Assembly: GCA_016286575.1 (NCBI GenBank)
Contig: JAEETB010000002.1
Location: forward strand, 1 to 64,000
Direction: 5' to 3'
DNA: 64,000 nucleotides
DNA from: Prevotella sp.
GTDB taxonomy: Bacteria; Bacteroidota; Bacteroidia; Bacteroidales; Bacteroidaceae
Below, piece by piece: positions 23,575 to 64,000 of this stretch; the first letter of the stretch is position 1; each line of letters begins with the position of its first letter. A model generated the notes under the pieces. That model made no database searches. It was not told where the DNA came from and was given only the letters and a program-made list of their open reading frames with translations. The translations under genes were made by a program, and so were the position numbers.

Positions 23575-23592
23575 AAAAGAGTACAGTTAACA

Positions 23593-24870: not shown

Positions 24871-24879
24871 AAATGAAAA

Positions 24880-26673: not shown

Positions 26674-26694
26674 AATAATTAAATATGTATATAT

Positions 26695-28752: not shown

Positions 28753-28796
28753 AGGCAAAAATAAGATAAGGTTTAAATATAATAAGGTAAGCAATA

Positions 28797-30728: not shown

Positions 30729-30749
30729 AAGTTGAAAAGTGAAATATGA

Positions 30750-31985: not shown

Positions 31986-31999
31986 AAGATAAAAGAGAT

Positions 32000-33130
32000 A
32001 TGACGAAGAAAAGATATATAGAGACCCTGTTGTTTTCGGCACTAAACGCCTTTGCGTTATTGGTTGTCGGATGCTCTGACACCGATGATAGTGGGATGCC
32101 TCCAGTCATCGAGTCAGAAGGTGAACCCTTACAGGTTTCTCGTTTCACTCGTTATGGTGCTGGTGATGGGACAAATGAGACCAACTACGACAATCTGACG
32201 ATGTGGCTTTTCGCCATACCTACTAATAATCCCGCAGAGAAAGTCCAATCAGGTATTGTGAGCTTCAATGGTATCTCTGAAGACGATAATCTTCTCACAT
32301 GGAACTCTGCCATCTATGTGAAGAACTCAACGACATACGAGATGTTCGGTTTCATACCATCGTATATTGCTGGCACAGACTCTGGCATCTCCGAGAATGG
32401 CGCTAGTTCGGCAAAACTGACCCTGAAGGGGTTGCAATCGCTCTCAGATGACGATGTTTGTATTATCACAGGTGTCGTTAACGGTGCTCCTGAAAACCTG
32501 ACACCCACAGATAAGCTCTATCGGGGCGTATATGAATATCAACCTTTATACGGTAGTACTCGTTATGGTGTACGCCTGCTGGCGGATCATATCTATGCCT
32601 CGTTGAAATTTGGCATCTATATCGATGGTGATTATGATGACCGTAGGACAATCAAGTTGAAGAAGATGGAAGTGATGAGTAACCAGAAGGCTCAGGTCAA
32701 TGCGGTAATAATCTTGAACAAGGGGGCAGGTACAGAGGTAGGGGTACCTTTCACCTCATTTACCACCACATCTGTAGAATCTTCCGACAAAGCGTCACAG
32801 GTCATTTTCGAGGATACTGAAGGTCATGAGATCATGACCACAGCTGCAGTAGCTTCTATGACAGACAAACAAAAAGCTGCATATAATATGATCTCTCCGA
32901 TCTATTTCGGAGACTGGCTCAAGAACGACCTTTATCTGGTGAGCACCTACGACGTATATGATAAGAAAGGTAACCTGACGCGCGAGAACTGTACGGTAAC
33001 CAATAAGTTGCCGAGTTCAAAGACCAATATAGATATTGGCGAACAGGATTCCATAACGTTGACGGTCAATCCGTCTTACCTCTACGTGCTTTCTGATCCA
33101 GATCAGGATCCCAAGGTGGTAATTAAATGA
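32000..33130 (+). CDS. Fimbrillin-like lipoprotein 6 (376 aa from ATG 32000)
   Basis: VVGCSDTDDS lipobox; 'LQVSRFTRYGAGDGTNETNYDNLTMWLFAIPT'; same orientation and tightly spaced with the preceding genes. Confidence 0.58.
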   Translation: MTKKRYIETLLFSALNAFALLVVGCSDTDDSGMPPVIESEGEPLQVSRFTRYGAGDGTNETNYDNLTMWLFAIPTNNPAEKVQSGIVSFNGISEDDNLLTWNSAIYVKNSTTYEMFGFIPSYIAGTDSGISENGASSAKLTLKGLQSLSDDDVCIITGVVNGAPENLTPTDKLYRGVYEYQPLYGSTRYGVRLLADHIYASLKFGIYIDGDYDDRRTIKLKKMEVMSNQKAQVNAVIILNKGAGTEVGVPFTSFTTTSVESSDKASQVIFEDTEGHEIMTTAAVASMTDKQKAAYNMISPIYFGDWLKNDLYLVSTYDVYDKKGNLTRENCTVTNKLPSSKTNIDIGEQDSITLTVNPSYLYVLSDPDQDPKVVIK

Positions 33131-44747: not shown

Positions 44748-44775
44748 ATAATAATCATTTAAAATATTGAGCATT

Positions 44776-46143
44776 ATGAAAAAGGTAATGAAAAGAATGT
44801 TTCTGGTCGCCGTGCTGCTGATGGCATGCGTGGTGACGAAGGCAGAGGTAACGGTCGAGTTCGCTCGTGAGTTCACTGCAGAGACTGGTGGTACAATTAC
44901 GGTAAAGGGTCAGGCAGCCAACGCCACTGATGCTACCAGCACTGATGTTACCATTACGGTGACACCAGCCAAGGACTTTTTTATCACCAAGAATGACATC
45001 AAAGTCTATCTGACTGTTCCTGCCAGCACACGTTCGGTAGATTTTGAGAATCTGCTGACACTTAGTGGTGATGAGCCGAAGGACAAAATGGCTGCCCGTG
45101 ACTATACCTTCACGGTGCCTGCAGGCTTCGGTGCCATCATTTATGAAGCCGATTTCCAGTCAGCTGATGCACTCTACAACATCGGTGATGATTCGAAATC
45201 AGGTTCGGTGAGATGGTCGTTGAATGAAGAGAAGACGGTCATGACCATTGCCGGTACCGGACGTACCAAGGATTTCAGTCTCGGCAGTGCAGACTTTGTG
45301 GATCCGTTCGAGGCATTCAGAGCAGAAGGCTCTACCGTTAAGTCGATTGTGATCGAAGCTGGTGTCACTGCTCTTGGTGACAACATCTTCAGCGGCTTTG
45401 TAGGCCTGACCAAGATTTCCATCTTGAATAACAGTGCTTTGTTATCGCTTGGCAAGGAAGCCATCAATACGAGTGGCGTGTCTGTCGAAGTTCCCGGCAA
45501 TCTTTACAATGAGTATAAGATCACCGAGGGGTGGAGTGGTCTGACTATTGCCCCTGCTGAGGGATCTGTGGAGATGGCTATTACATTCGATAACAGTAAC
45601 TCCTATAGGGCATTTGTTAACAGTGCACAGAGTCTGATGATTCCAAGTGTGCTGAAGGCATGGGTTATCTCTGGACTGAATGCTAGCGGCACATCGTTGG
45701 AACTGTCTGAGGTGAAAGACATTCCTGCCAATGTTCCCGTCTTGCTTACGGCCTCCGGCAAAGTCAGCGATGGTTTCTATACCTCATCTGTCGCTTCAGC
45801 CGCCAGTTCAGCAGGCAAGTATCTGAAGGTTGCTCCTGAAGGAGGACTGACCGTTGGCGCAGGTCAGGTATATCTGCTTTACAATGACCGTTTCTACTTC
45901 TCTCAGGCCGGAACCCTTCCAGCCAACCGTGTATACCTGGATATGAGACAGGAACCAGCAGCCAAGACCCGTAGCAGTATCGGCATTGGTGACGATGGCA
46001 CAACGGCCATCCGTCGCATCGAAGGCGAGAACAAGCTGATCGACAAAGCCGGATGGTATACCCTTGATGGCCGTCAGCTTCAGACGATGCCAACTCGCAA
46101 GGGTGTGTATATCAATGATGGTAAAAAAGTCGTGATTAAGTAA
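44776..46143 (+). CDS. Secreted protein with shared N-terminal domain and T9SS-like C-terminus
   Basis: Signal MKKVMKRMFLVAVLLMACVVTKA; 'TVTPAKDFFITKNDIKV'; C-term 'GWYTLDGRQLQTMPTRKGVYINDGKKVVIK'. Confidence 0.85.
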   Translation: MKKVMKRMFLVAVLLMACVVTKAEVTVEFAREFTAETGGTITVKGQAANATDATSTDVTITVTPAKDFFITKNDIKVYLTVPASTRSVDFENLLTLSGDEPKDKMAARDYTFTVPAGFGAIIYEADFQSADALYNIGDDSKSGSVRWSLNEEKTVMTIAGTGRTKDFSLGSADFVDPFEAFRAEGSTVKSIVIEAGVTALGDNIFSGFVGLTKISILNNSALLSLGKEAINTSGVSVEVPGNLYNEYKITEGWSGLTIAPAEGSVEMAITFDNSNSYRAFVNSAQSLMIPSVLKAWVISGLNASGTSLELSEVKDIPANVPVLLTASGKVSDGFYTSSVASAASSAGKYLKVAPEGGLTVGAGQVYLLYNDRFYFSQAGTLPANRVYLDMRQEPAAKTRSSIGIGDDGTTAIRRIEGENKLIDKAGWYTLDGRQLQTMPTRKGVYINDGKKVVIK

Positions 46144-47168
46144 TGTCTCGCAAGATGACGATAGTACAAAGCTTAGGGCGGCTGTTACTGACAGCGCTGC
46201 TCATGGTGTGGAGTCTGGGAATGACTGCGCAGAAGGTTAGCGTGGTCACCCAGAAGTTCAAGGGCGGTACTGTCGAGGAGAAGCCTGGCCAGACAGAAGA
46301 AAAGGACGGTAGTGTCACGGTTACGCTGACCGTGACCCCCGATCCAGGCTACATGATCTCGAAGGACGACATCAAGGTGGTGGAAACCATCTCAGCCGAT
46401 GCTGAGACCCGTGCCGATGCTGAGATCAAGCTAGGCAATCCTTTGCCATTGGAGGGCGATGATCCCGATGACCTCACCAAAGAACGAAAGTATACGGTGA
46501 AGGTGGAATCGCCGTTTGGCATCTATGTCAAGGAGGCCAACTTCAAGCTGAAGGATGCCGTACAGATCGAGGCTTCTGTCTTCTCCAAGACGAGCGAGGA
46601 GAGTACTGAACAGGCCGCTATGTTCAATCCACCAACAGACCTGGGCTTAGCCGAGGGCTTGAAAGCCTATATGGTGGTAGGCGTCAATACGGACAAGGGA
46701 AAGGTCGAACTCCAGGAAGTGAAGTACTTGCCCAAAGGTCTGCCACTGCTGTTGATTGCCGACGATCCTGGCGAAGGCTTCATTTTGGAGCCGAAGTCTG
46801 ATAAAACGTCTGAAATCAAAGACGCTGATAAGGCCAGCAACCTCCTGCGGATAGGCTCGGAAACCGTACAGCCCAAGGCCTTCGAAGATTATATCTTCTA
46901 TAAGGGCCGGTTCGTGATGGTCGACGGCGGTAAGCTTGCTGATGGCAAGATGTTCCTCGATCTCAATCAGGAGCAGGCCGCCAAGACGCGCGGTGTGCTC
47001 GGTATTGGCGGTGATGATTCCGGCACCACAGGTATTGCCGATGTGGAGCGTGCTGCGCGATCTGCTCACGACACCAGCTGGTACACCCTCGACGGCCGCC
47101 GCCTCACGACGCCCCCCTCCCGCAAGGGCATCTATATCCGAAATGGAAAAAAAGAGGTCTTTAAATGA
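46143..47168 (+). CDS. Secreted protein with shared N-terminal domain and T9SS-like C-terminus
   Basis: TAATG 1-nt overlap with previous gene; 'TVTPDPGYMISKDDIKVVETISADAETRAD'; C-term 'SWYTLDGRRLTTPPSRKGIYIRNGKKEVFK'. Confidence 0.85.
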   Translation: MSRKMTIVQSLGRLLLTALLMVWSLGMTAQKVSVVTQKFKGGTVEEKPGQTEEKDGSVTVTLTVTPDPGYMISKDDIKVVETISADAETRADAEIKLGNPLPLEGDDPDDLTKERKYTVKVESPFGIYVKEANFKLKDAVQIEASVFSKTSEESTEQAAMFNPPTDLGLAEGLKAYMVVGVNTDKGKVELQEVKYLPKGLPLLLIADDPGEGFILEPKSDKTSEIKDADKASNLLRIGSETVQPKAFEDYIFYKGRFVMVDGGKLADGKMFLDLNQEQAAKTRGVLGIGGDDSGTTGIADVERAARSAHDTSWYTLDGRRLTTPPSRKGIYIRNGKKEVFK

Positions 47169-47291: not shown

Positions 47292-50200
47292 ATGATGAAA
47301 ATGAAGACATATAGAATGACGTTAAAGCGCATGATGATGACGGTGCTGATGATGCTCACTGTATCAGCCATGAGCGCCGAGCAGAAGATTTGGCTACGCT
47401 ATTCTAGCGGAGGTAAGGCGAAGATCAGTCTCGATGGAAAGGGACTCGAGCTTGATAAGGAGAATAAGGCCACGGTGAAAGATGCCGCTGGCCTGAAGGT
47501 TGCTGTAACTGCAACACCCGACGACGGCTACACCGTATCCAGTGTAACCGCCCAGCTCTCCGTCACCCTTGATGACGGCAATTCCAAGACCCGTGGTGCC
47601 GACGATGCCTCATTCCTGGAAGTGACTAAGGAATCTGATACCGAATATGTCTTCACCATGCCTGACGCAGGCTATAATGTTGTTGTAAATGTTAATTTTA
47701 CAGTTGAATCATCAAGAAAAGGAGGAGATCTTAGTGGCATTACAATAAAAGGTGGTGATTTTTCGGGAACGTATTTTATTAAGAGTGTTAGTGTCAACAA
47801 AGAAACTACAGATGATTATTATTTGTGTCCTACGGAAGGGTGGGTTTACTATACAGGAACAAATAGTTTCACTGAGGAGGACAATGGTCAACCCTTCTTG
47901 ACAACTTATCCGTGTAAGAGTATTGAGGGTTACAATGCAACCAAGGCATTATGGAAGATTGAGAAAAGTGGCAATTACTATACTATCAAGCATGTCATTG
48001 ATGGCAAATACATGGTATATAATGGCCAAATCTCTGATGCGAATGCAAACCGTATTCGTGTACACCTTGCGGATGTTGAAACCCTTGGTGAAAATGAATT
48101 GTTTGTTATAGGTACGAATACTGCCGGCAATATCGTTATTTCACCTAAGAATGCTAGTACTAACTATTTCAACGTTTGTCAAGGTAATATAAAGGATTTG
48201 GCAGGATCTACTAAATACAAAGTTAAAGCAAAAAATGACGGTCCAACAACTCCCACTAATCATAAGAATGATATTCATGGAACGATTGGATTATACACTG
48301 ATATAAATGATTCAAATGCTCCATTTATTCTTGAAGACTACATCACCCGCCCGACAATAGATTATGATGTTAGTGACAATAACAAGATTATTATCACAAA
48401 TAAAACGACTTCATTATCTGGTACGATATATTATACCACAAATGGTGATGATCCTACTCTGGAAGCTTCAACTAGATCATCTTTTACAGATGCTTCGAAG
48501 ACGATAGATTCGTTTACTGATGGTACCATTATCAAAGCTGTGGCAAAGGTCGGTAATGATTATTCTAATGTTGTTACATTCACGTCATTTGTTCATGTGG
48601 GTAATTCAAATCAGTATTTGATTCAGACTGTTGATGGTGGTTCGTTCTATATGGTTCCACCAATTACTACAGAGACTAAAGTTACCACTACTAATATACC
48701 TCATGAAAAAATGGCTTGGTATTTTGATTATGTAGGACAAGAGTGGGGTATTCAATATTACAATATTGTAAATGTTAAGACTTCCAGTTATCTGTATTGT
48801 TCAGGAAGTAAAGGTTCTGATGGTGCATTTAAGTTAAAAGAAGATAGTGAAACAGATGCGAATCGATATACATTTGTGTTTGTTTCATCAGGAGATGGTG
48901 TTAATGTTATTCCAAATATACATTTTGCAGAAACCACGGGAATGTGTATGAGTAAGAAGAATGGCAATAATGCAACAGACAACCTGAATCTGTCTGATGG
49001 AACTGACAATAATTCTCGCTGGAAGTTTGTTGCGCTTCCTTCTGATTCAGACCCAAAGACATTGTTTGACCGCTCTTTTGCGTCGACAAGCTCGGGATAT
49101 AAGTCGTATGAAATACAGAGTGCCAGTGCAACGACAACTCATTTAGTTCCACCAGCGACGGTAGGTGGTAATCTAACTGCAAATACAACGGGTGACAATC
49201 CTGTGTGGTCTTTCGAAGATACAGGAGAGTCGGATACTTGGATTTCATATTATTATTTGAGAAACCGTACAACAGGCAACTATGTTTTCTTTGACGGAAC
49301 AGCAGGCCAAGATAATGGTAGTACATTCTTTACCAGTGCTACTATTACATCTGGTTCTGAGGATAAATTTAAGTTCATAGTTGTAAAAGCTACTAATGGC
49401 ACTTCATACAACATTATTCCAAAGTTGCTGAAAGATCAAGCAAACCAAACAAAGAATAGTTTAAGTAAAACCTCTACTACGGAATTGAAGACTCTAAACA
49501 GTAGAGCCGTAGAAGCATCTCTTTGGAACCTTGTAGAGACAAACACCTTTACTGTATTGCCTCCTACCATTGCATACGGAACAGGAGTTGTCAGCATGTC
49601 AAGTGTTACGCCAGGTGCCGTTATAAAATACACAACGAGTACTACCGATCCTTCAACAATATATGATGATGCAAATAAACCTGCCTATGCAGATGATGCC
49701 CAAATATATATAAAGGCTCTTGCTGCCGTTGGCAATAACACATCCAGTGATGTCACATTCATCAAGAACCCAGATGTTAATTTCACGGAAGGCTTTGATT
49801 TCTCTTACACAGGGTCTGCCATAGAACCGACTGTTAGCAGTGTAACGGTAACTCCAGAAGGGGGCTCTGCTATAACTATCGATGAAACAGAATATGAGAT
49901 AGCCTATAGCAATAACACAAACGTTGGTAAGGCAACCATCACCATCTCTGATGCATTGCCGGCTAACAATTTGATCATCAGCGGCATTTCTGAATTTGAT
50001 ATCACTAAGAGAAGTTTGGGTGATGGCACTACGGCAGCAGATGGTATAGTTATTACTGTGACAAAGGTTGAGGACACTCCCATTTCATATACAGTTACTG
50101 TTAAAAACGGCACAAGTATCACTTTAGTAGAGGATACCGATTATACCCTCAATGATGTAACTTCTGATGCTAGTGGTTATAGGGCTACGATTACAGCGGT

Positions 50201-50870
50201 GGAAAATAGTAACTACAGTGGAGGTGCCAAGATTATTTTTGTGAAAGCTGACTTTCCCACAGCAACTGACCCGAATAGTGGTGGGGCTGTATCCGCCTAT
50301 CAGGCTACTACTGATTTGGCAACTCCTCCAGGACTGACTGCTTATATTGTAACAGGTATTAACTTGGGTACAAGTACTGTGGAGGTGAAAAAGGTAGATT
50401 ATATACCAAATGGAAAACCTGTTTTGCTTCTGACAGATGAGGGGGATCCTCATGACGCAGATTTTACAACCTCGTTGGTAGAGGGTGTGACTGATGAACA
50501 GCGTAATACTGATACAGAAGGTAATTTATTGAAGATCTCTACAAGTGCAGAACCTGTTGCCTGTGACTGGGGACAGTATTACATTTTCTCTAAAGGTGAG
50601 TTTGTTCTCTCTATGGGTGGAAAGACAATGATGGAAGGTTTGTTCTATTTGGATAATAGCGAGTATAGTTCTGGAGGTGGATCAACACGAAATCCTAGTA
50701 TACTCCACTTGTCAAGGGGTGCTACTACAGTAATAAATGGTGTCGTCAGTCAGAAAGAGAAGGATTCAAGGTCTTCTGTATGGTATACCATTGACGGACA
50801 GAAGCTTAATCAGAAACCTACCCGCAAGGGAATTTATATATATCATGGTCATAAAATAATTATAAAGTAA
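47292..50870 (+). CDS. Large secreted multidomain protein (1192 aa) with chitobiase C-terminal-like repeats and T9SS-like C-terminus
   Basis: 'TIYYTTNGDDPT', 'VIKYTTSTTDPSTIYDD' (CHB_HEX_C_1-like); 'VWYTIDGQKLNQKPTRKGIYIYHGHKIIIK'. Confidence 0.85.
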   Translation: MMKMKTYRMTLKRMMMTVLMMLTVSAMSAEQKIWLRYSSGGKAKISLDGKGLELDKENKATVKDAAGLKVAVTATPDDGYTVSSVTAQLSVTLDDGNSKTRGADDASFLEVTKESDTEYVFTMPDAGYNVVVNVNFTVESSRKGGDLSGITIKGGDFSGTYFIKSVSVNKETTDDYYLCPTEGWVYYTGTNSFTEEDNGQPFLTTYPCKSIEGYNATKALWKIEKSGNYYTIKHVIDGKYMVYNGQISDANANRIRVHLADVETLGENELFVIGTNTAGNIVISPKNASTNYFNVCQGNIKDLAGSTKYKVKAKNDGPTTPTNHKNDIHGTIGLYTDINDSNAPFILEDYITRPTIDYDVSDNNKIIITNKTTSLSGTIYYTTNGDDPTLEASTRSSFTDASKTIDSFTDGTIIKAVAKVGNDYSNVVTFTSFVHVGNSNQYLIQTVDGGSFYMVPPITTETKVTTTNIPHEKMAWYFDYVGQEWGIQYYNIVNVKTSSYLYCSGSKGSDGAFKLKEDSETDANRYTFVFVSSGDGVNVIPNIHFAETTGMCMSKKNGNNATDNLNLSDGTDNNSRWKFVALPSDSDPKTLFDRSFASTSSGYKSYEIQSASATTTHLVPPATVGGNLTANTTGDNPVWSFEDTGESDTWISYYYLRNRTTGNYVFFDGTAGQDNGSTFFTSATITSGSEDKFKFIVVKATNGTSYNIIPKLLKDQANQTKNSLSKTSTTELKTLNSRAVEASLWNLVETNTFTVLPPTIAYGTGVVSMSSVTPGAVIKYTTSTTDPSTIYDDANKPAYADDAQIYIKALAAVGNNTSSDVTFIKNPDVNFTEGFDFSYTGSAIEPTVSSVTVTPEGGSAITIDETEYEIAYSNNTNVGKATITISDALPANNLIISGISEFDITKRSLGDGTTAADGIVITVTKVEDTPISYTVTVKNGTSITLVEDTDYTLNDVTSDASGYRATITAVENSNYSGGAKIIFVKADFPTATDPNSGGAVSAYQATTDLATPPGLTAYIVTGINLGTSTVEVKKVDYIPNGKPVLLLTDEGDPHDADFTTSLVEGVTDEQRNTDTEGNLLKISTSAEPVACDWGQYYIFSKGEFVLSMGGKTMMEGLFYLDNSEYSSGGGSTRNPSILHLSRGATTVINGVVSQKEKDSRSSVWYTIDGQKLNQKPTRKGIYIYHGHKIIIK

Positions 50871-50872
50871 GA

Positions 50873-53800
50873 ATGGAAAAATATTCACTTGATATGAGTA
50901 AAAGAAGATATATAAGTATTTTATTTACGTTACTGATTTTCCTCTTGAGTGGAGTTACTCAGGTGTGGGCTGTTGTTGATGCAAATTCTATAAAGATCGT
51001 TGTGACACCTCCTGGTGGAGATTCACCAGATTATGGCATGGTAGTGAAAGAAGTTGTTCCGACTAGTGGCGACAATAAGGTAACACTAACGGCTACTCTA
51101 GGAGCTACTCATACTATTTCAAAAACAAATATCATTGTTCAACCAGTTACAGACCCCAGTCAAACCCGAGCTCCTGGTATAGCTTCGGAACTGGAAGTCA
51201 TGGACGGAACATCACCTAATGAATTTTATTTCATTTTACCCGCAAGATATGACGGTGCCATTGTGACTGCAAACTTTATTTCGACAGAAGCTACAGAGAT
51301 TGATGATTTAAGTGGGATTACCAATCAGTTTGGAAACTATAAGTTTAGTTCAACCTTCTCTCCTTCTAAAACCCCAGCAGATGGTATAGGAACTTCAACT
51401 AAACCTTTTAGAGGTTCTCTACAGGGCTATATTGATGCAAGTGGAGAGATTAAGGTGATTAGTTTGTCTAAACCATTGTTTGACTATGTGAAGGATGCAA
51501 CTATTAAGAATATTGTTGTGGAAGGTACGATTAGTGGTTCTGGCAATGTGGGTGCTATTGCTGGAAATGCTTTAGGAGCTTCGCGCATCTATAACTGTGG
51601 TGTATTGGCCACAGGAAGTACTGTAGAAAAAGACGAAGATGGTTATGATAAGATTACCTCGTCCAGTAGTTCCGTTATTGGCACCAACTATGTAGGTAGT
51701 ATTGTGGGTTTGCTTGACGGCAGTTCGCGTATCATCAACTGCTATAGTTATGCCAATGTTTCCGGAGGTAATTATGTAGGTGGTATTGTGGGTTATAACA
51801 ACGTTGCTACCACTGCCAGCAACCTTCAGACGATGGTGATGAACTGCATGTTCTATGGTGAAGTCAGTGGTTCTTCGATAGCTCCCATATACAACGGTGA
51901 GATTATCACCAACGATGGCGATGCAGACGGCGTTAACAACTTCAACTATTTCCGCCTAGAATCATCTTACATTCAGGATAACACTATTACCAAAGTATAT
52001 AACTGTGCCCTTGGTGCCGAGACACGTTTCCTGCAGCGATTCGAATTCTACCGCCATTTGCTGAATAGTAACCGTGAATTGGCTGCTTGGTGGGCTACGG
52101 GCGATGCTGACAATAAGGACGAGATGATGAAATGGGTATTGGAGCCTAGCCAGATAGGATCCTCCACACCCTATCCTATCCTTAAGACTCCAGATAAATA
52201 TGCTTCGGTGGTCAATTATACTCCCAGCACGACAGCCTACGATGAAGCAAACCGCAACAAGGGACTTAAACTGACTCGCGAAGGCGACGGTGGTGTGCTA
52301 CAAGTTACCATACAGATGGGATCTACTAAATTCTCTGCCCCGTCAAGTGCTGGCTTTAAGTCTGGTGTAACAGGCAGTTTTGATCTCACCATTACCGATA
52401 AGGATTTTGAGCATTTCAATTATAACTACGGTAAGGTGCAATTGCCCTATTATAATGATTATTGTGATGGTAACTATACAGGAAACCGCGTGGTTACCGG
52501 CTGGAAGATTATTAGTATCACGGGTGGCACGGCGGGAAGTTACTCTACCGGAGATGATGTTACCTACAATGACAAAGGTGAATTGACAGCAACACCCTAC
52601 AACTTTGCCGACCGCAAATGTAAGAATAAAGACCTTTACTCCGAAAGTGGCCGTGTTTTCAACCAAGGTGCCTACTGGGATGTTCCCGAAGGGGTGACTG
52701 CCATCACCATCGAGCCTTATTGGGGTAAGGCGGTTTATCTGTCCGATGCCTACTGGGATGTGACCTATAAGAATGGTACTGGAACTGATCTCACTAAAGC
52801 CGGATCTACAGAAGATGCCATGACTACTGCCGCCAATGTCACTACCGTCGGCGGAGGTAAACACTATGAAAACGGCAAGAAATATAATCTTGCTACCCGT
52901 AGTCGTGATGATGCTGGTCAGATTGTCTATACTTCCATGAGCAATGCTATCTCAAGTAATGGTTCTGCACTTTTTTCGGAGAGTGTTACGAATCCCACCG
53001 TTTATGATTATGCTGTGGTGCTTGTGGGTAATTATCATCATACTGCTGCCATAGAAGCAAATAAGAACTATACAGTTACCTCTATTGACCTTGATGGCGA
53101 CAATGAGCCGGACTATTCTCTCATGCTTCGCTTTAACGGCCGTCTGGCTTTCCATCCTGTAAAATACGATTTTCTGAACCTGATAGGCCTCGGTATGGCA
53201 CAGAAGACCACCGGCGGCACAGGTTCATACAATCTTGGTATCATGCAGCCCAAGGCTTGGTTCGAGGTGACCAACACCGCCCTTTTCCGTGTTACTCAGT
53301 TTGAATACGATAAGGGTAGGACAAAGAGTCCCTATATCTTACAGGGAGGTGTTATTGAGCAGTGGGTTACCCAACAGGACAATGCCGGAGATGGGGTAAG
53401 TTACTTCCACATAGGAGGAAATGTATGGTTCAAGGAATTCCACAGAGGCTCCCACCAAGATAATGCTAACAAGAGCACTCCTCACCCCCCCTTGTCTGTC
53501 ACTGGCGGTGATTTCTCTAAGTTCTACCTTACAGGCTATTATCAGTCTCAGGCCACCATTTACGATGATAATGCCGAGTGCTATATCAACGGAGGTCGCT
53601 TCGGAGAGATTGCTGGTGCCGGTATGGAAGGTATTGGTACTTCAGATAGCAAAGGCAACATTACCTGGATTATTGATAATGCCGATATCAAGGAGTTCTA
53701 TGGCGGTGGAATCAACCATGCTAAACCTGTGCATGGTAATATTCACACCATCATCAGCAACAGCCATGTGGATGTTTTCTGCGGTGGTCCCAAGTTCGGA

Positions 53801-56800
53801 AATATGGCGGCTGGTCGCACTGTCACCACTTCTGCCACCAACTGCACTTTTGGCACTTATTTCGGTGCAGGCTACGGCGGTAACTCCTACAGCCGCGACG
53901 CACCGAGAAACCACAATAATATATTAAACTTCCCCCATAACGATAAATCTGCTGGTAACCACACTTCTTGGAACAACTGGTTGTCGGATAAATACAAGCA
54001 GAGCTATGTTGCCAATAAAGGTGGTATATCCACCCAGTTTGACTATCAGTTCTTGCCAATGTCGAGCAACACTGATAATGTGGCACGTATTTTTGTCGAT
54101 TATGTCGCCTTCTCATTGGCCACTTGTCATAACGTCACTTCTTCTTTGACAGGTTGCACCATTACAGGTCATTTCTATGGTGGTGGAAGTTTGGGAAAGG
54201 TTGATGGAAATGTTACCTCAACGCTTTCCAACTGCAAGGTAAATGGCAATGTATATGGGGCAGGCTATTCCGCTTCTTTGCCAACAGTCGATGTGATGAG
54301 TGTTGGTTTCCAGACTGAACCTTATTATTATACAGACCTCGGTACTTATCGTAAGGGAGTCTTCCCTGCAACTACCCCTTATACTTGGCAACATGGCGCT
54401 GCCATCAGTGTCGACAATGTAAATCATATCCTTTATACCACAGAAGACCTTGATGCCCTTGGCACGGTTGAGGGTAAGGTTACGTTGAACATTGAGGGAG
54501 AAAAGACTTCTGTCACAGGAAATATTTATGGAGGCGGTCAGTCGAGTGATGTGTATGGTGTTAACACTTCAAATGAAATTACTAGTGAAGTTGAGATAAA
54601 TATCAAGGATGGCTCGATGACCGATGTCTATGGTGGTGGTGAAGGTAAAAACACTATAGTCGGTGGTAATGTAGTAGTTAATATTGGTGCAAAAGCCACA
54701 AATGGAGATCTAAGTGGAAATGCTATTATTTCTGGTAATGTATATGGTGGTAGTGCCCTTGGTGCTGTGAATGCATCATCTACAAAAGATGAAAATGGCG
54801 ATGTTGCTAGTTATGTGCCACTTTCAGGAAAAACAACGGCAGTTAATATTTATGGCTGTACTAGCATTGCTAACGTCTTTGGTGGTGGATTAGGCCAATT
54901 GGAAAGTGGTACATCGGGACAGCCTAATTATAAGCCTTTCATTGCTGCTCAGAACTTCGGTGACGTGACGGTTACTATGGAAGGCGGAAAAGTCAGTACA
55001 GCCATCTATGGCGGTAGCAATGAGAATGGTGTGCTGAAAGGCAAGGCTACAGTGACACTAAAAAACGGAACAGTAGGAACAGCAGTGACATCAGGAGACC
55101 CAAACAACGTGGTCTTTGGTGGTGGTAAAGGTCAACCCACACTTGTAGAAGGTGATGTGGAAGTAAACATCGGAGAAACTACTCAGACTGAAGGTGGCGC
55201 AACTATTAATGGTAGTGTCTATGGTGGTTCTGCTTTGGGTAATGTGAATGCGACGAAGAATGGAACTGCAGTAGAAAGTACAACAAAGCAGGATCCTGCT
55301 TATCCAACGGATCCCACCAAGACAATTCCAACAGAGACAACCGTTACACTGAATAGGGGTACTGTCGGTGGTGATATTTATGGTGGTGCCCTTGGTTATT
55401 TACATACAACGTCTGAAACAGAAAGCGATGATGTTGCTGCTAACGTATATGGCCCCGTAACGGTCACAGTCAATGGTGGTACAGCCCGAAATGTGTTCGG
55501 TTGTAATAATAAATTAGGTACACCGAAGAACACGGTAGCTGTGACAGTTAACGGAACGGCAGCCCATATTGACGAAGATAATACAACCACTCCAGTAACT
55601 CCTGCCGTGTTTGCTTTGGGTGCAGTTTATGGCGGTGGTAATGAGGCTCATTATGTGCCAACGGCCAGTGGAGTTGAAGCACCTGTTGTGACCATCAACG
55701 GTTGTGCTAGTAGTATCGAATACGTCTATGGCGGTGGTAATGCTGCCAACGTACCAGCTACCAGTGTAACTGTCAATGGCGGTATCATCGGCTACGTCTT
55801 TGGTGGCGGTCATGGCGACAAGAATGCCTCTCCGGCTACTGAGGCTAATGTGACGGGTGTTGTCGATATTGACATTAATGGCGGTACCATCAGTTACATC
55901 TTTGGTGGTAGTAACAGTAAAGGAACTATCGGCGGTGATATAACTTTGGATATAAACAAGACAGGTACCTGTGCTATGAAAATTGCTGAGGTGTATGGCG
56001 GTGGTAATGAGGCAGACGGTAAGGCTGCCACTATTACCATTGGTTGCACGGGCGATCTCGTTACTGGTGATGATGGACATGCATCACATCCAGAGAATAT
56101 CGGTACCACTTTGGAAGGTATTGGAGCACTCTATGGCGGTGCCAACAAAGCCGATGTCGGTACAGCAGAAGCGGCCTCAAACATCACGCTGAACATCAAT
56201 AGTGGTATAGTTGCTAATGTGTTTGGTGGTAACAATACCAGCGGTACGATTTATGGTACAATCGAGGTTAACATTAATAAGACTTCTGAGGCTTGTGGCT
56301 GGTATGTGGGCAATGTCTTTGGCGGTGGTAATAAGGCTGAGTATAGTGGCACTCCTACTGTCAATATCCAAAATGGTAAGGTGAGCCGAAATGTCTATGG
56401 TGGTGGTAACGAAGCTGGTGTAGGTGGTTCGAAAGTAGACATGACTGGCGGTATTGTGCTGGGCAATGTATTCGGTGGCTGTAATACCAGCGGCACAGTT
56501 TCTGGTGATACCCAGGTGAATGTTACTGGCGGCACAATAGGTGAGGGTAGTATTACAAAAGATACTAACGGCAAAATTACAGCGTTTAGTCGTACTACAA
56601 AGGGTAATGTCCATGGTGGTGGTTATGGTAAGGACACTTACGTGAAAGGGAATGTAGAGGTGAATATTGGAAGTGCGACAACCGTTTCTTCAACAACTAC
56701 ATACAGTGGAACAGCAGAAATCTATGGCGATGTCTATGGTGGTGGCGCTCTGGGACATGTGAATGCTTATCTGGATGGAACGACGCTTACATACAGTTCA

Positions 56801-59800
56801 GATAAAACGACTACCGTCAATCTGAATAAGGGTACGATTTATGGTGATGCTTACGGTGGCGGTCTTGGTGATGCAAATAATGCTGCATACGTTGGTGGTA
56901 CTGTGAACGTGAATCAGAATGAGGTGGCTTATATTATTGATTATGAAAATACTACAGATGTAGATCCAACAGACCCAGACCCAACTAATCCAACCAAATT
57001 TATACAGGTGGTGAAGAGTGGTCGTATCTTTGGCTGTAACAATCTGAATGGTTATCCTTTGGAAAATGTTACAGTGACAGTTAATAAGACTGTTGCGGGT
57101 AATGTCACGAGAACCTCGGGTACTTTAGATCATACTAAGTTGGCTGATGATCCCAGTCTTTCTTATGAATTGGCAGCTGTATATGGCGGTGGTAATCTGG
57201 CTTCATTTACAGCGACAAACAAGAAGACAATTGTTCTTATCAAGGGTTGTGATGATACCAGCATTGAGACGGTCTATGGCGGTGGTAATGCCGCTGCCGT
57301 TCCTGAGACGGATGTGAAAGTCCAGAGCGCATACGAGATAGGTTCTGTCTTCGGCGGTGGTAATGGTAAAGACAAGTATTACAATGGTACAACATGGGTG
57401 GCCAATCCTGGAGCCAATGTCAGTGGCGATGCTCACACCGTGCTGTATGGCGGTATCATCCATGAGGCATACGGTGGAAGTAATAAAAAAGGTACCATTT
57501 CTGGCAATATTACCATTGATATGTCAGATACTCATCTTAATGGAGACAATTGTGATCTGCACGTTGGAAAGTTTGTGGGTGCCGGTAAGGATGCCGATGC
57601 CAATGGTGTGAAGATGATCGTTGGCTGTAAACCCAGTCAAAAGACTCCTATTATTTATTTTGGTGCTGATAATGCCAATATCAATGGTGATGTGGAAGTG
57701 ACTATCACCAGCGGTAACTATGGAAAGGTGTTCGCTGGAAATAACGCAGGGGGTGCTATCTTAGGAAAAATCATCTTGAATATTGAGGAGACTGGCAATT
57801 GTGAAACTCCCATCACTATCGATGAACTCTACCTTGGTGGTAACGAGGCTGCTTATTCTGTCTATGGCTATTATAAGGACGCTACTGACGGCAAATTGTA
57901 TCCAATAGGTAAAGATGGAAAAGACAAAGATGGAACAGCAAGAAAGCCTGTGAGGTGGGATAGCACTACCGAACAATATGTCGAGATTTCAGGAACAGGA
58001 AATGATACATTCACACCATACGCCGATCCGATACTGAATGTCATTTCTTGTACCAGCATCGGCCAGATATTTGGTGGTGGCTATGGAGAAGGTGCTGTTA
58101 TGTATGCTAATCCGACGGTGAATATTAACATGATTCCAGGGTCAAAGGCTACACTCATAGATCTTGACGGTGACGGTAATCCAGACAACGATGCCACAGC
58201 TTTGGGTGCTATCGGCAATGTCTATGGCGGTGGTAATGCTGCAGATGTCATTGGTAATACGACGGTCAACATCGGTACGGAGACAACCATCAGCATGAAT
58301 ACCGAACCGGCTCATCTTGGCGAGGGCAAATATACCTATAATACGGAAACTGGTAAATATGATGGCGTCGCTGTCATAGGTGCCAATATTACTGGCAATG
58401 TGTTTGGTGCTGGTAAGGGTTCGGAAACCGATGTCACTAAGGCAATGGTATCAGGCAACAGTATTATCGTTATGAAGGGCGGCTCGGTGAAGAAGAGCGT
58501 CTATGGCGGTGGCGAGCTGTCGCAGGTGGCAGGTAATACAGACATTACCGTTGCTGGCGGTACCATTGGTACGCCCAATGAAGGCAGTACAGTGTACGGC
58601 GGTGCTACGTATGGTAATGTCTATGGTGGTGGTCAGGGTAATACCACAACTCCCGATGCTGGTCTTATCAAGGGTAATACCAAGATTACAGTCCAAAACA
58701 CTGTTGTAGATGAGAACACGACTATAACCCCCAACATCTTACATAATATCTATGGTGGTGGTGCGTATGGTTCGGTTGGAACAATTACCCGTGATGCTAA
58801 TGGTGCGACCTATGTACCTGGAAGAACTACTAATATTTTGAACATGCCTACAGCTTGGGCAAGGAAATCAGGGAATACAGGCACTGACACAGGAAATACG
58901 GAAATTTATATCAACGGCGGACAAATCGGTACAAATGGTAACGAGAATGGTATGATATTCGGTTCGTCGCGTGGTGATGTTTCCACACCTTATGGTGCAA
59001 ACGCAGAAAATCCTTATGGCACAGATGTAGACAAGAACGACCGCTTGGCTTGGGTATATGATACTAAGGTTGTAATCGGTCAATCGGGTAATCCAGACAT
59101 CAGAGGCTCTGTCTATGGTAGTGGTGAGAACGGACATGTCTTTAACAATACTGATGTACAGATTCATAACGGAAAGGTAGGTATTGATGATACAGGGAAA
59201 ATTACCGATCCAGTGACTAATATCGAATATACGGGCGCCGACTATCCTAAACGTGGCAACGTCTATGGTGGCGGTTGCGGTGAGGATGATTATACCGTCT
59301 CTGGTGTAAAATATTTCAACCCATTGGCAGGTATTGTGCTTGGCGATACAAAGGTGACCATTGATGGCGGAAAAGTCGTCCATAATGTCTATGGTGCCGG
59401 TGCTTTAGGTTCTGTAGGTGGTAAGACCACCATCGAGATTAGTGCAGGTCAGGTTGGTGACGATGGCGTGGGTGATGGTGATGTCTATGGTGCTGCCCGT
59501 GGTAAAGTGGGTCTCACTCAAGAGAACATCGCACAGGTTCGTGAAACGAGTGTTACCATCTCGTCGACTGCTGATGTCAAGGCAAGTGTCTATGGTGGTG
59601 GTGAGGCCGGTAATGTCAGAGAGAACACGGCTGTCAGTATGACTGGAGGTACCGTTGGCGAGAATGTCTATGGCGGCGGTAACTTAGGCTACGTGGGAAC
59701 TTTTACTACTTCGACGAATACAGGAACTGGAAGCACGGAATATATTTTTACAGATACTGAAGGTAACGCCAATACCACTGCCAATAGTGACAACAAGAAT

Positions 59801-62800
59801 ACTGGTGTTTGTACTGTTACAATTTCTGGCGGTAAGGTGGGCCCTGATACTCCGACGGAGACCAAACCCGGTAATGTGTTCGGAGCTGGCAAGGGTTCTT
59901 CAGAAACATTCGAGTGTGAGCCCGCTATGGTATATAGCACGAATGTCATTATCAGCGATGGTATTGTGAATGGTACTGTCTATGGTGGCGGCGAGGTAGG
60001 CCGAGTAGAAAACAACACGGTGGTAACAATAGGAACCCAAGGAGAAACGGATGGGTCTAATAAGCCTGATATTAAAGGTAACGTTTTCGCTGCTGGTAAG
60101 GGTCTCAACACACATGGATATTCGGCTCTGGTTCGTGGCGACAGTAAAGTGACGGTTCAGGGTATAGCCCATGTCGGACACAGTGTCTTTGGTGGTGGTG
60201 AGATTGCTACGGTGGGTAGATATGTGGTCGTAGATAATCTGCCGACAACAAACACCAGTGGTGGTGATTGTATCGTAGAAATCAAAGGCAATGCCCATAT
60301 CGCAGAAGATGTCTATGGTGCCGGTAAGGGGGTTCTGCCTTATGAAGGGTATACTTCTTCAGAAACTCCCTGGAGTAAGACGTCCACTGGTTCTACGCAA
60401 TATACAGATGCCAATCGAGCTGACTACTTTAAGTATATTACTACGCTGGCTATAGTCAGTGATACCCATGTGACTGTGACAGGAAACGCTACTGTTGGCG
60501 GTTCCGTCTATGGCGGTGGTCAGAAAGGTTTTGTGCAGACAGATACTGATGTGGAGATTCAAGGTTCTTGCGCGATTGGCACGGCTAGTACGACCACGGG
60601 AGGTAACGTCTTTGGCGGTGGACTGGGTGATGCTTCTGTTGCTGGTTATGCAGAGGCAGGCCGTGTGAAGGGAAATACCAACCTCGAAGTCAGCGGTGGT
60701 AATGTGTATGGCAACGTCTATGGCGGCGGTAGCTTGGGCGACGTGGGTACCATTGTCAAGAGTGCTGATTATAATTATAAGTGGACTAACGAGACCAATC
60801 CCAGTGAGACTTACACTTACAACAATACCGGACTTTGTACTGTTGAAATTAATGGCGGTATCATAGGTGTTGATAATCCTACAAACGCTTCTGAACATGG
60901 CAATGTGTTTGGAGCTGGTAAGGGTAAAGACGACACCTACTGGTGTGAGAAGGCCATGGTGTACAAGACAAATGTCACAATTAATAAAGGTACAGTAAAA
61001 GGTAACGTTTATGGCGGTGGTCAGATTGGCCGCGTGGAAAATAACGCGGTGGTAACGATAGGACCGGCTTCAGGAGATGATGTTGCTGATATCAAAGGTA
61101 ACGTATTCGGAGCAGGTGCAGGTTTGAATACTCATGGCTATTCGGCATTGGTACGTGGTAACGCTACCGTCACTGTTCAGGGTAAAGCCCAAGTTGGACA
61201 AAGCGTCTATGGTGGTGGTGAAACAGCATCGGTGGGAAGATTTGTTGTAAATACCGAAACGTCATTACCAACAGAACCGCTAAGTGGTGGAACATGTACC
61301 GTCACAGTCAATGGTGAAGCCGCAATTACGGGCAATGTCTATGGAGCTTGTAAGGGAATCACTCCTGATTATGCTAATGCTACCATACATTGGAAGAATG
61401 ATAATAAGTCGCATAATTTTGATGATGAGGCTGATTACCTTAAGTTCCTTAAAACACTGGCCTTAACCAGCAATACCGATGTGACCATCGGTGGTAGTGC
61501 TACTATTGGTGGTGATGTCTATGGCGGTGGACAGAGAGGTATTACCTTAGGTTATGTGGAGGTCGATGTGACTGGCGGTACCATTACCAAAGATGTTTAT
61601 GGCGGTGGTGCTTTGGCAGACACGAACACCAGCAATTGGGATGGGTCGTCATTAACAGCTAAATATTATGAGGTTACTGGCCTCACTGTTGGAACGTCTG
61701 TTGTAACAGGTTTGTACACAAAGAATGGCGATAAATATACGGCGGCTACGGGTACGGCTCAATCAGGTATCAAATATTATAGGTTGACAAATACCAAAGT
61801 TAGTCTGATGGGTGGAAAAATCCTAGGTGCAGCCTATGGTGGTGGTTTAGGTCAAAAGACTGGTGTGGATAATGCAACCAGTGATGTTGAGGCTATGGTC
61901 TATGGTGACGTGCTGGTTGACCTGAACGGAACGACAACCATGAGCGACGGAAAAGCTACAGTTAATGGTGTGGCGACGACGTATGCCGCGGGTTGTGTCG
62001 TTAATGAAATATTTGGTGGTAATAATGTTAACGGTTCACCGAAGGGTGACGTGATGGTGCATGTTTATGCTACTCAGAATAAGAATGAGGAAGATATTAT
62101 AACAAAGGATGCGGGTAATTACGATGTGACAGCCGTGTATGGTGGTGGTAATCAGTCTGCGTACGTGCCTGCAACGGCTTATCATCCTACGAATGCTCCA
62201 GCCGGTTCAAAGACCCAAGTTATCATTGAGGGATGTAGCACGACCAGTATCGAGAACGTCTATGGTGGTGGTAATGCTGCTGCTGTGCCAGAGACGAATG
62301 TGGAAATCAGATCTGCTTTTGAAATCTACAACGTCTTCGGTGGCGGTAATGGATATAGTGCCACAAAGAATCACACAGATCCCACGGCAGCCAACTACAA
62401 TCCTGGTGCTGATGTTGGTACTCTTGACAAAGGAACATCGACATATGGTACAGGTAACGCTAATACGTTATTAATAGGTGGTCATATCCACGAGGCCTAC
62501 GGAGGTAGTAACCAGGAGGGTAAGATTATGGGTAATGTCAACATCAATACCAATCCAAAGGATGAATCTGAGGACGGTTACTGTGCTCTGAATGTCGAGA
62601 AGTTGGTTGGTGCAGGTAAGAATGCCGATGTCGATGGCGACTTGATTATGATTCTGGGTTGTAAGCCAACCACGAAGACTCCGTTAGTCTTTGCCGGTGC
62701 CGATAATGCCGACGTGAATGGTAACGTGGAACTGACGATTACCAGTGGAACGTTCGGACAGGTATTTGGTGGAAATAACCTGGGTGGTGTCATCAAGGGA

Positions 62801-64000
62801 CATATTAAACTGAATATCGAGGAGACAGGGTGTAACCCAATCCGTATTGATTCACTCTATCTTGGCGGTAATCAGGCTGCATACTCAATATATGGTTATT
62901 ATAATAAAGGAACGGAAGAGAATCCTGATCTTCAGCCAAGAACGGCTGAGATGGAGGCTGTAGGCAGTTCTAATCCTGGTTATATTGCGCCTGTAGGGAA
63001 TCCTTCCAATACTGACGGGAAGCATCCGTTCCCATACGCTCAGCCTGTGCTGAATGTAATTTCTGCCACCAGCATTGGAAAGGTGTTTGGTGGTGGTTTA
63101 GGTGAGGGTGCTGTTATGCATGCTGACCCGACGGTGAACATCAATATGATTCCGGGTGTATTTGCTACTCAGGAATTAGGTGGTCCTCATAAGCTTGGTA
63201 CAATCGGTGATGTCTATGGCGGTGGTAATGAGGCTGTGGTTTATGGTAAAACGACTGTAAACGTTGGAACGGCAGAAACAGTAACGATGACCTCCGTTAG
63301 TGACGATGCAACGACAACAACAGTTGATGAGAGCAAGCCATATGTCGAAGGTGCTCGTATTGTCGGTAATATCTTCGGTGGCGGTAATCAGGCTAATATC
63401 GAAGGCAGTACCGAGGTTAACATCGGTACGATGACCTATGCAAATGAAAATTATGAGGGCGTTAGTATCAAATGCTTGGAGAACAATGCTGAGCATCCAG
63501 ATAACGAAGAGAAGACTGGTATGGTATTCGGTGGCGGTAATGCAGCTGATGTGACTGGTAATACAGTCGTCAACTTTGCTGGTGGTTATGTGGAGAACCG
63601 CATCTATGGTGGTGGTAACTTAGGATCGGTAGGAACATTTACCAAAAATACTGCAGGAAAGCCTGATTCTTGGACATCAGGCGGTAAGTGTACAGTTACT
63701 GTCAGTGGCGGTAAGTTGGGTAAGGACAATATGAAGATGCCTGACGATTTCGGCTATGTTTTCGGAGCCAGCCGTGGTGAGGTAAGAGATACTACCGTAG
63801 CAGAATATGCAGATCTTCGATTTAAGACTTATGTTAAAGAGACCGAGGTGGTTATCAAGGGTGATGCCTTTATTCTTGGTGGTGTCTATGGTGGTAGTGA
63901 GAATGGCCATGTGCGTGGTGATACATGGGTGAAGATTCAAGGTGGCCAGATTGGTTGTGGCACGGGAACGACTATACCTTATGATGAAACAAAGTTTATT
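50873..64000 (+). CDS. Giant secreted GGN-repeat protein 2 (>=4376 codons, 3' end beyond window)
   Basis: ATG 50873 MEKYSLDMSKRRYISILFTLLIFLLSGVTQVWA; frame spot-checked at several points and at the window end (..VKIQGGQIGCGTGTTIPYDETKFI); all + strand ORFs listed by the track here lie in another frame; dense VYGGGN repeats; GLUG-like motifs near 51.5-51.8 kb. Confidence 0.9.
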   Translation, partial: MEKYSLDMSKRRYISILFTLLIFLLSGVTQVWAVVDANSIKIVVTPPGGDSPDYGMVVKEVVPTSGDNKVTLTATLGATHTISKTNIIVQPVTDPSQTRAPGIASELEVMDGTSPNEFYFILPARYDGAIVTANFISTEATEIDDLSGITNQFGNYKFSSTFSPSKTPADGIGTSTKPFRGSLQGYIDASGEIKVISLSKPLFDYVKDATIKNIVVEGTISGSGNVGAIAGNALGASRIYNCGVLATGSTVEKDEDGYDKITSSSSSVIGTNYVGSIVGLLDGSSRIINCYSYANVSGGNYVGGIVGYNNVATTASNLQTMVMNCMFYGEVSGSSIAPIYNGEIITNDGDADGVNNFNYFRLESSYIQDNTITKVYNCALGAETRFLQRFEFYRHLLNSNRELAAWWATGDADNKDEMMKWVLEPSQIGSSTPYPILKTPDKYASVVNYTPSTTAYDEANRNKGLKLTREGDGGVLQVTIQMGSTKFSAPSSAGFKSGVTGSFDLTITDKDFEHFNYNYGKVQLPYYNDYCDGNYTGNRVVTGWKIISITGGTAGSYSTGDDVTYNDKGELTATPYNFADRKCKNKDLYSESGRVFNQGAYWDVPEGVTAITIEPYWGKAVYLSDAYWDVTYKNGTGTDLTKAGSTEDAMTTAANVTTVGGGKHYENGKKYNLATRSRDDAGQIVYTSMSNAISSNGSALFSESVTNPTVYDYAVVLVGNYHHTAAIEANKNYTVTSIDLDGDNEPDYSLMLRFNGRLAFHPVKYDFLNLIGLGMAQKTTGGTGSYNLGIMQPKAWFEVTNTALFRVTQFEYDKGRTKSPYILQGGVIEQWVTQQDNAGDGVSYFHIGGNVWFKEFHRGSHQDNANKSTPHPPLSVTGGDFSKFYLTGYYQSQATIYDDNAECYINGGRFGEIAGAGMEGIGTSDSKGNITWIIDNADIKEFYGGGINHAKPVHGNIHTIISNSHVDVFCGGPKFGNMAAGRTVTTSATNCTFGTYFGAGYGGNSYSRDAPRNHNNILNFPHNDKSAGNHTSWNNWLSDKYKQSYVANKGGISTQFDYQFLPMSSNTDNVARIFVDYVAFSLATCHNVTSSLTGCTITGHFYGGGSLGKVDGNVTSTLSNCKVNGNVYGAGYSASLPTVDVMSVGFQTEPYYYTDLGTYRKGVFPATTPYTWQHGAAISVDNVNHILYTTEDLDALGTVEGKVTLNIEGEKTSVTGNIYGGGQSSDVYGVNTSNEITSEVEINIKDGSMTDVYGGGEGKNTIVGGNVVVNIGAKATNGDLSGNAIISGNVYGGSALGAVNASSTKDENGDVASYVPLSGKTTAVNIYGCTSIANVFGGGLGQLESGTSGQPNYKPFIAAQNFGDVTVTMEGGKVSTAIYGGSNENGVLKGKATVTLKNGTVGTAVTSGDPNNVVFGGGKGQPTLVEGDVEVNIGETTQTEGGATINGSVYGGSALGNVNATKNGTAVESTTKQDPAYPTDPTKTIPTETTVTLNRGTVGGDIYGGALGYLHTTSETESDDVAANVYGPVTVTVNGGTARNVFGCNNKLGTPKNTVAVTVNGTAAHIDEDNTTTPVTPAVFALGAVYGGGNEAHYVPTASGVEAPVVTINGCASSIEYVYGGGNAANVPATSVTVNGGIIGYVFGGGHGDKNASPATEANVTGVVDIDINGGTISYIFGGSNSKGTIGGDITLDINKTGTCAMKIAEVYGGGNEADGKAATITIGCTGDLVTGDDGHASHPENIGTTLEGIGALYGGANKADVGTAEAASNITLNINSGIVANVFGGNNTSGTIYGTIEVNINKTSEACGWYVGNVFGGGNKAEYSGTPTVNIQNGKVSRNVYGGGNEAGVGGSKVDMTGGIVLGNVFGGCNTSGTVSGDTQVNVTGGTIGEGSITKDTNGKITAFSRTTKGNVHGGGYGKDTYVKGNVEVNIGSATTVSSTTTYSGTAEIYGDVYGGGALGHVNAYLDGTTLTYSSDKTTTVNLNKGTIYGDAYGGGLGDANNAAYVGGTVNVNQNEVAYIIDYENTTDVDPTDPDPTNPTKFIQVVKSGRIFGCNNLNGYPLENVTVTVNKTVAGNVTRTSGTLDHTKLADDPSLSYELAAVYGGGNLASFTATNKKTIVLIKGCDDTSIETVYGGGNAAAVPETDVKVQSAYEIGSVFGGGNGKDKYYNGTTWVANPGANVSGDAHTVLYGGIIHEAYGGSNKKGTISGNITIDMSDTHLNGDNCDLHVGKFVGAGKDADANGVKMIVGCKPSQKTPIIYFGADNANINGDVEVTITSGNYGKVFAGNNAGGAILGKIILNIEETGNCETPITIDELYLGGNEAAYSVYGYYKDATDGKLYPIGKDGKDKDGTARKPVRWDSTTEQYVEISGTGNDTFTPYADPILNVISCTSIGQIFGGGYGEGAVMYANPTVNINMIPGSKATLIDLDGDGNPDNDATALGAIGNVYGGGNAADVIGNTTVNIGTETTISMNTEPAHLGEGKYTYNTETGKYDGVAVIGANITGNVFGAGKGSETDVTKAMVSGNSIIVMKGGSVKKSVYGGGELSQVAGNTDITVAGGTIGTPNEGSTVYGGATYGNVYGGGQGNTTTPDAGLIKGNTKITVQNTVVDENTTITPNILHNIYGGGAYGSVGTITRDANGATYVPGRTTNILNMPTAWARKSGNTGTDTGNTEIYINGGQIGTNGNENGMIFGSSRGDVSTPYGANAENPYGTDVDKNDRLAWVYDTKVVIGQSGNPDIRGSVYGSGENGHVFNNTDVQIHNGKVGIDDTGKITDPVTNIEYTGADYPKRGNVYGGGCGEDDYTVSGVKYFNPLAGIVLGDTKVTIDGGKVVHNVYGAGALGSVGGKTTIEISAGQVGDDGVGDGDVYGAARGKVGLTQENIAQVRETSVTISSTADVKASVYGGGEAGNVRENTAVSMTGGTVGENVYGGGNLGYVGTFTTSTNTGTGSTEYIFTDTEGNANTTANSDNKNTGVCTVTISGGKVGPDTPTETKPGNVFGAGKGSSETFECEPAMVYSTNVIISDGIVNGTVYGGGEVGRVENNTVVTIGTQGETDGSNKPDIKGNVFAAGKGLNTHGYSALVRGDSKVTVQGIAHVGHSVFGGGEIATVGRYVVVDNLPTTNTSGGDCIVEIKGNAHIAEDVYGAGKGVLPYEGYTSSETPWSKTSTGSTQYTDANRADYFKYITTLAIVSDTHVTVTGNATVGGSVYGGGQKGFVQTDTDVEIQGSCAIGTASTTTGGNVFGGGLGDASVAGYAEAGRVKGNTNLEVSGGNVYGNVYGGGSLGDVGTIVKSADYNYKWTNETNPSETYTYNNTGLCTVEINGGIIGVDNPTNASEHGNVFGAGKGKDDTYWCEKAMVYKTNVTINKGTVKGNVYGGGQIGRVENNAVVTIGPASGDDVADIKGNVFGAGAGLNTHGYSALVRGNATVTVQGKAQVGQSVYGGGETASVGRFVVNTETSLPTEPLSGGTCTVTVNGEAAITGNVYGACKGITPDYANATIHWKNDNKSHNFDDEADYLKFLKTLALTSNTDVTIGGSATIGGDVYGGGQRGITLGYVEVDVTGGTITKDVYGGGALADTNTSNWDGSSLTAKYYEVTGLTVGTSVVTGLYTKNGDKYTAATGTAQSGIKYYRLTNTKVSLMGGKILGAAYGGGLGQKTGVDNATSDVEAMVYGDVLVDLNGTTTMSDGKATVNGVATTYAAGCVVNEIFGGNNVNGSPKGDVMVHVYATQNKNEEDIITKDAGNYDVTAVYGGGNQSAYVPATAYHPTNAPAGSKTQVIIEGCSTTSIENVYGGGNAAAVPETNVEIRSAFEIYNVFGGGNGYSATKNHTDPTAANYNPGADVGTLDKGTSTYGTGNANTLLIGGHIHEAYGGSNQEGKIMGNVNINTNPKDESEDGYCALNVEKLVGAGKNADVDGDLIMILGCKPTTKTPLVFAGADNADVNGNVELTITSGTFGQVFGGNNLGGVIKGHIKLNIEETGCNPIRIDSLYLGGNQAAYSIYGYYNKGTEENPDLQPRTAEMEAVGSSNPGYIAPVGNPSNTDGKHPFPYAQPVLNVISATSIGKVFGGGLGEGAVMHADPTVNINMIPGVFATQELGGPHKLGTIGDVYGGGNEAVVYGKTTVNVGTAETVTMTSVSDDATTTTVDESKPYVEGARIVGNIFGGGNQANIEGSTEVNIGTMTYANENYEGVSIKCLENNAEHPDNEEKTGMVFGGGNAADVTGNTVVNFAGGYVENRIYGGGNLGSVGTFTKNTAGKPDSWTSGGKCTVTVSGGKLGKDNMKMPDDFGYVFGASRGEVRDTTVAEYADLRFKTYVKETEVVIKGDAFILGGVYGGSENGHVRGDTWVKIQGGQIGCGTGTTIPYDETKFI

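Follow-up and report, generated by a model that had tools for sequence, protein, structure and literature searches.

Taken together, our analyses confirm that the second giant reading frame of this Prevotella sp. contig encodes a real exported repeat protein of 7,864 aa (giant 2). This protein belongs to a conserved pair with a second giant (giant 1) encoded just upstream, found mainly in ruminant-gut Prevotella-type bacteria. We put forward, as a tentative reading with slightly less than an even chance of being right, that the two giants form a surface fibre of beta-solenoids stacked end to end, in which giant 2 would supply the tip and shaft and giant 1 the anchor.

The complete reading frame of giant 2

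The window, that is, the whole stretch of DNA analysed, comprises bases 1 to 64,000 of a contig of 74,811 bp. Giant 2 starts on the forward strand at the ATG at 50,873, 2 bp past the end of the preceding gene (50,870), and its frame continues without a stop to 64,000, giving 4,376 aa in the window. A sequence-only reading had described this frame as open to the window edge, rich in repeats and headed by a signal peptide, and had called it the second of its kind. Each of these points held on re-translation: the N-terminus reads by eye as a signal peptide, a repeat motif matches 108 times in the full protein, and an earlier giant frame is indeed present at 33,141-44,747 (3,868 aa). The same reading had presumed that the frame was cut by the window edge alone and had proposed extending the contig past 64,000. 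When the pieces were joined (the overlap was identical over 4,000 bp), a TAA stop codon was found outside the window at contig positions 74,465-74,467, with no in-frame stop or frameshift before 74,465. The full-length protein has a calculated mass of 812 kDa and a pI of 4.8.

The end of giant 2 looks natural, because a hairpin followed by a T run lies directly 3' of the stop (z-score -4.0; 0 of 200 shuffles equally stable). A consensus terminator scan did not report this hairpin, probably because its loop exceeds the length that the scan permits. This hairpin and the conservation of the terminal repeat led us to reject a premature stop or a cut-off C-terminus.

The sequence-only reading had also named an assembly artefact as a way in which the frame could prove false, and the joining of repeats from several genes deserves consideration, as the region is repetitive and the assembly fragmented (478 contigs, 87% complete, for a genome of 3.5 Mb, about 35 kb of which is taken up by the two giants together). 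However, the internal repeats of giant 2 have diverged, with 40-62% protein identity between the best blocks and a longest reported pair of similar DNA segments of 300 nt at 81%, and gene order is conserved in relatives. Complete frames are also present in independent genomes: the closest relative found, the uncultured Prevotellaceae RUG443 (L053), has a counterpart of 7,052 aa with the same terminal repeat, and two others have 7,926 aa (G050) and 8,065 aa (G131). Given the diverged repeats and these independent complete frames, an artefact is very improbable. Over the N-terminal 1,250 codons, comparison with L053 gave a dN of 0.16 and a dS of 0.79 (dN/dS about 0.2), and thus the codons of this part of giant 2 are under purifying selection.

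Organization and predicted fold of giant 2

The signal peptide occupies approximately 50,873-50,971 (forward strand, judged by eye from the translation), with ISILFTLLIFLLSGV as its hydrophobic core. It is followed by a conserved N-terminal module (N-module; aa 138-1090, 51,284-54,142), which shows 61% mean column identity over nine proteins. A short stretch of this module resembles the M26/GLUG N-terminal region; in a PDB search, the N-module profile matched the N-terminal region of an M26 IgA1 protease over about 130 positions (E 1.4e-13), and giant 2 itself fell just below the cut-off of the Pfam family for that region. Giant 2 was rejected as an M26 IgA1 protease, as no HExxH motif is present in it and the match is below the cut-off and confined to the N-terminal region.

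The remainder of the protein is an array of VYGGGN repeats of about 6,700 aa, which fills the window from 54,143 to 64,000 and continues outside it to the C-terminus. The motif counted above, [VILF][YF][GA]G[GSAN], recurs most commonly at spacings of 25-26 aa. At a higher level, a module of about 1,700-1,900 aa recurs, as does a block of about 520 aa present in about five copies, one of them at the C-terminus; the copy that was modelled lies at 56,993-58,552 and a further copy in the window at 62,006-63,631. In single-copy relatives, this 520-aa block forms the C-terminus, and the giant forms therefore look like products of module duplication. When 800 aa of the repeats were searched against the host genome, nothing else matched, and a search for plasmids with the end of the contig returned no match.

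No Pfam family covers the repeats. AlphaFold2 predicted the 520-aa block as all-beta with regularly spaced strands (pLDDT 91.3, pTM 0.91) and also gave a model of the N-module (pLDDT 86.8, pTM 0.88). Foldseek searches with these two models found no solved structure in the PDB at E <= 0.001, and a fold search of viral libraries likewise returned nothing at that threshold. From the repeat sequence and the predicted strand pattern, we infer that the array probably folds as a beta-solenoid.

Giant 1, the gene cluster and type IX secretion

The genes around the two giants lie on one strand (forward) in a long run. An AraC-type regulator with a TPR-like N-terminal part (18,763-20,484) is followed by six or seven lipoprotein-like fimbrillin candidates (21,415-33,130), giant 1 (33,141-44,747), three exported proteins and, in last place, giant 2. 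Matches of the fimbrillin candidates are marginal, lying just below the Pfam cut-offs (FimA, 21.0 bits against 21.4; Mfa2, 20.5 bits against 21.2), and a PDB sequence search with three of these genes gave no meaningful match. Near its C-terminus, the Mfa2-like protein (23,593-24,870) carries a long stretch of low complexity (PDPGPGPDPG). Among the three exported proteins, the first (44,767-46,143) has a tail of the form ..WYTLDGR..KGVYI..GKK..IK, the second (46,143-47,168) has a similar one, and the third (47,292-50,870), of 1,192 aa, combines a ricin-type lectin domain with a WYTLDGR-kind tail and ends 2 bp before giant 2. The interval between the giants holds other genes in some relatives: a transposase-like ORF, putatively of the REP-associated type by eye, in L126 (a 411-aa ORF just upstream of giant 2) and L036 (14,269-15,504), and in several others short genes that we take to be RhuM-like (L067, 7,128-8,033; L069; L072).

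Giant 1 has its repeats right after the signal peptide and a type IX (type A) sorting domain at its C-terminus. The match to TIGR04183 is marginal, at 25.3 bits in the genome search (cut-off 23) and 22.1 bits on the last 300 aa. The host genome encodes type IX components, namely PorV (209 bits) and SprA/Sov (SprA_N, 706 bits). For giant 2, the genome-wide search gave no TIGR04183 match at the end of the protein, and its last 199 aa matched no NCBIfam family of any kind, type A or type B sorting domains included, at E <= 1.

A signal peptide by itself leads only as far as the periplasm. Giant 2, with its signal peptide and no recognisable type IX sorting domain, could accordingly be pictured as a long periplasmic protein with a structural or spacer role that never reaches the surface. 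We consider this improbable: the operon is otherwise of a surface type, lectin-like domains occur in the neighbour, preceding or accompanying the N-module, and the estimated length of the shaft would far exceed the width of the periplasm. In addition, a protein of the same kind in one relative (L124, 7,433-22,021) carries its own type A sorting domain (37.5 bits), the only such case seen. The genome of L124 gave no giant-1 match. We considered whether this protein is a fusion of giant 2 and giant 1 and rejected the idea, because its C-terminal part matches giant 1 poorly and the sorting domain is its own. The presence of a sorting domain on the giant-2-type protein of a genome with no detectable giant 1 fits an anchoring role for giant 1.

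Distribution of the pair

Strong matches to the N-module were found in 10 of 99 relatives, and giant 1 was present in all ten; only one of the 99 genomes had giant 1 without giant 2. Wherever both genes of these ten relatives were on one stretch that was read, they adjoined each other. The co-occurrence has a naive hypergeometric probability of about 7e-13, a value that ignores shared ancestry. A scan of GTDB species genomes yielded 267 relatives, and the best 78 of these, to which the statement on habitat applies, are mostly Bacteroidales of the ruminant gut, well over half of them bearing isolate names of that origin (RUG, RGIG). The two cultured members of these 78, Xylanibacter brevis ATCC 19188 and Prevotella sp. 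tc2-28, both have giant 1 just upstream on the same contig. One relative, L063, has a giant 2 without a sorting domain and no giant 1 in its genome, the assembly of which may be incomplete; as it stands, it does not fit anchoring by giant 1.

Two further relatives show unusual forms. Giant 2 of L127 (9,404-21,307) is interrupted and resumes at 21,324, about 16 bp on, in another frame and without a signal peptide, and this interruption is a frameshift in the genome or in the assembly. A contig of genome G132 (C7; L140/L141) carries the same repeat family in a frame of 9,577 aa from stop to stop, with several more giant frames beside it.

Chain ends and split and fused forms

The chain of giant 2 ends 19-28 aa past the last repeat motif, like nearly all its relatives. 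An end 18-32 aa past the last motif was found in 59 of 64 closed giant-2-type chains, against 19% expected for random stops, in a comparison that ignores shared ancestry. The terminal repeat of giant 2 resembles the internal repeats, and in all six cases read a repeat of this kind directly follows the signal peptide of giant 1.

In many relatives, giant 2 is represented by two exported proteins, the first with the N-module and the second starting on an open repeat. About two dozen such second parts likewise have the repeat right after the signal peptide. In most split relatives, the separate tip protein stops at the position corresponding to aa 1271 of giant 2 (54,683-54,685, forward strand), and in three genomes (L072, L098 and L111) the second part begins at the position corresponding to aa 1329; in the protein studied here, the regions around both residues lie on one unsplit chain. 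Such an alternation of split and fused forms is what would be expected if the two edges meet in space. The matching end repeats are ordinary internal repeats as well, so that their match does not single out one partner.

Four relatives (L081, L086, L110 and L113) carry tandem paralogues of a short N-module protein, each ending on an open repeat edge, suggesting that these paralogues are interchangeable tips.

A proposed stacked fibre and its alternative

The stacked fibre proposed above would be arranged as follows. The N-module of giant 2 would form the distal tip, which would probably bind a ligand, and the repeat region of about 6,700 aa would form the shaft. We infer that giant 2 is exported across the outer membrane and exposed on the cell surface, where, without a sorting domain of its own, it may be held by the neighbouring giant 1: its last repeat, which is open, would pack on the likewise open first repeat of giant 1, and the sorting domain of giant 1 would be the base of the fibre. 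In split relatives, the same fibre would consist of three pieces, namely tip, middle and base. The likely role would be adhesion to feed particles, to a host surface or to other cells.

The fibre is supported by the complete and conserved frame, by the linkage and co-occurrence of the giants, by the presence of a sorting domain on giant 1 only, and also by chains that end in a fixed register and by the split and fused alternatives. It is weakened by L063, with its giant 2 lacking a giant 1, by the lack of a significant Foldseek match and by end repeats that do not specify a partner. Another explanation is that giant 2 stands alone as a giant surface adhesin or matrix protein, secreted by way of a signal that goes unrecognised; giant 1 would then be an independent adhesin encoded in the same operon, and chains would end on full repeats simply for stability. 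L063 speaks for this explanation, and short paralogues with the same end stand in tandem with no obvious sorting-domain partner on the stretch (L081, L101). However, the tight linkage and co-occurrence of giant 2 with giant 1 speak against it, as do the terminal repeat, which is like the internal ones and so offers no apparent dedicated new signal, and the lack of any NCBIfam domain in the last 199 aa. We therefore regard free-standing secretion as unlikely, though it keeps an appreciable share of the probability.

Extending the stacked fibre to the whole family, we suggest, as a possible but doubtful generalization, a modular fibre in which separately exported solenoid giants of several thousand residues, most of them without an outer-membrane sorting signal, would stack end to end on one signal-bearing base and thereby be brought to the surface or kept there. 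Evolution might then adjust its length by duplicating the modules, each of about 1,700-1,900 aa, and by splitting or fusing genes at the edge where the proteins stack.

If stacking is true, one must ask how proteins that lack a sorting domain exit through or beside the type IX system. The two cultured carriers of the pair make the model testable, and the repeat family itself, which Pfam does not call, is widespread in ruminant-gut Bacteroidales.

Comparison with known systems

Proteins of this kind are known from Giant1-5 of Apilactobacillus and from SprB; in the open-access literature searched, no description was found of the giant pair, its open-ended arrangement or its repeat family. Giant1-5 of Apilactobacillus kunkeei are extracellular proteins of 3,000-8,000 aa, parts of which are predicted to be beta-solenoids (PMC12863079). 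They are like the giants described here in being encoded by neighbouring genes, in occurring in niche- or host-associated bacteria and in their predicted solenoids; in contrast, they belong to a Gram-positive organism and their solenoid is an N-terminal domain, whereas here it would make up most of the protein, in a comparison made by description (PMC12863079). SprB of Flavobacterium johnsoniae, a motility adhesin of 669 kDa, is likewise a giant repetitive surface protein of the Bacteroidota tied to the type IX system (PMC7807042, PMC8986121). SprB, also compared by description, is itself a type IX substrate, whereas giant 2 has other repeats and no recognisable sorting domain. The N-terminal region of the M26 IgA1 proteases matches a short part of the N-module, but giant 2, without HExxH, does not belong to this protease family.

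The genes upstream of giant 1 resemble, with marginal matches, the fimbrillins and anchor proteins of the Mfa1/FimA-type fimbriae of Porphyromonas gingivalis (PMC5789003). Those fimbriae are polymers of small pilins (PMC5789003), whereas each giant is one long chain that is built of predicted solenoid repeats and lacks a fimbrillin domain. If stacking is true, surface fibres longer than one polypeptide would be formed with no need for a pilin-type polymer.
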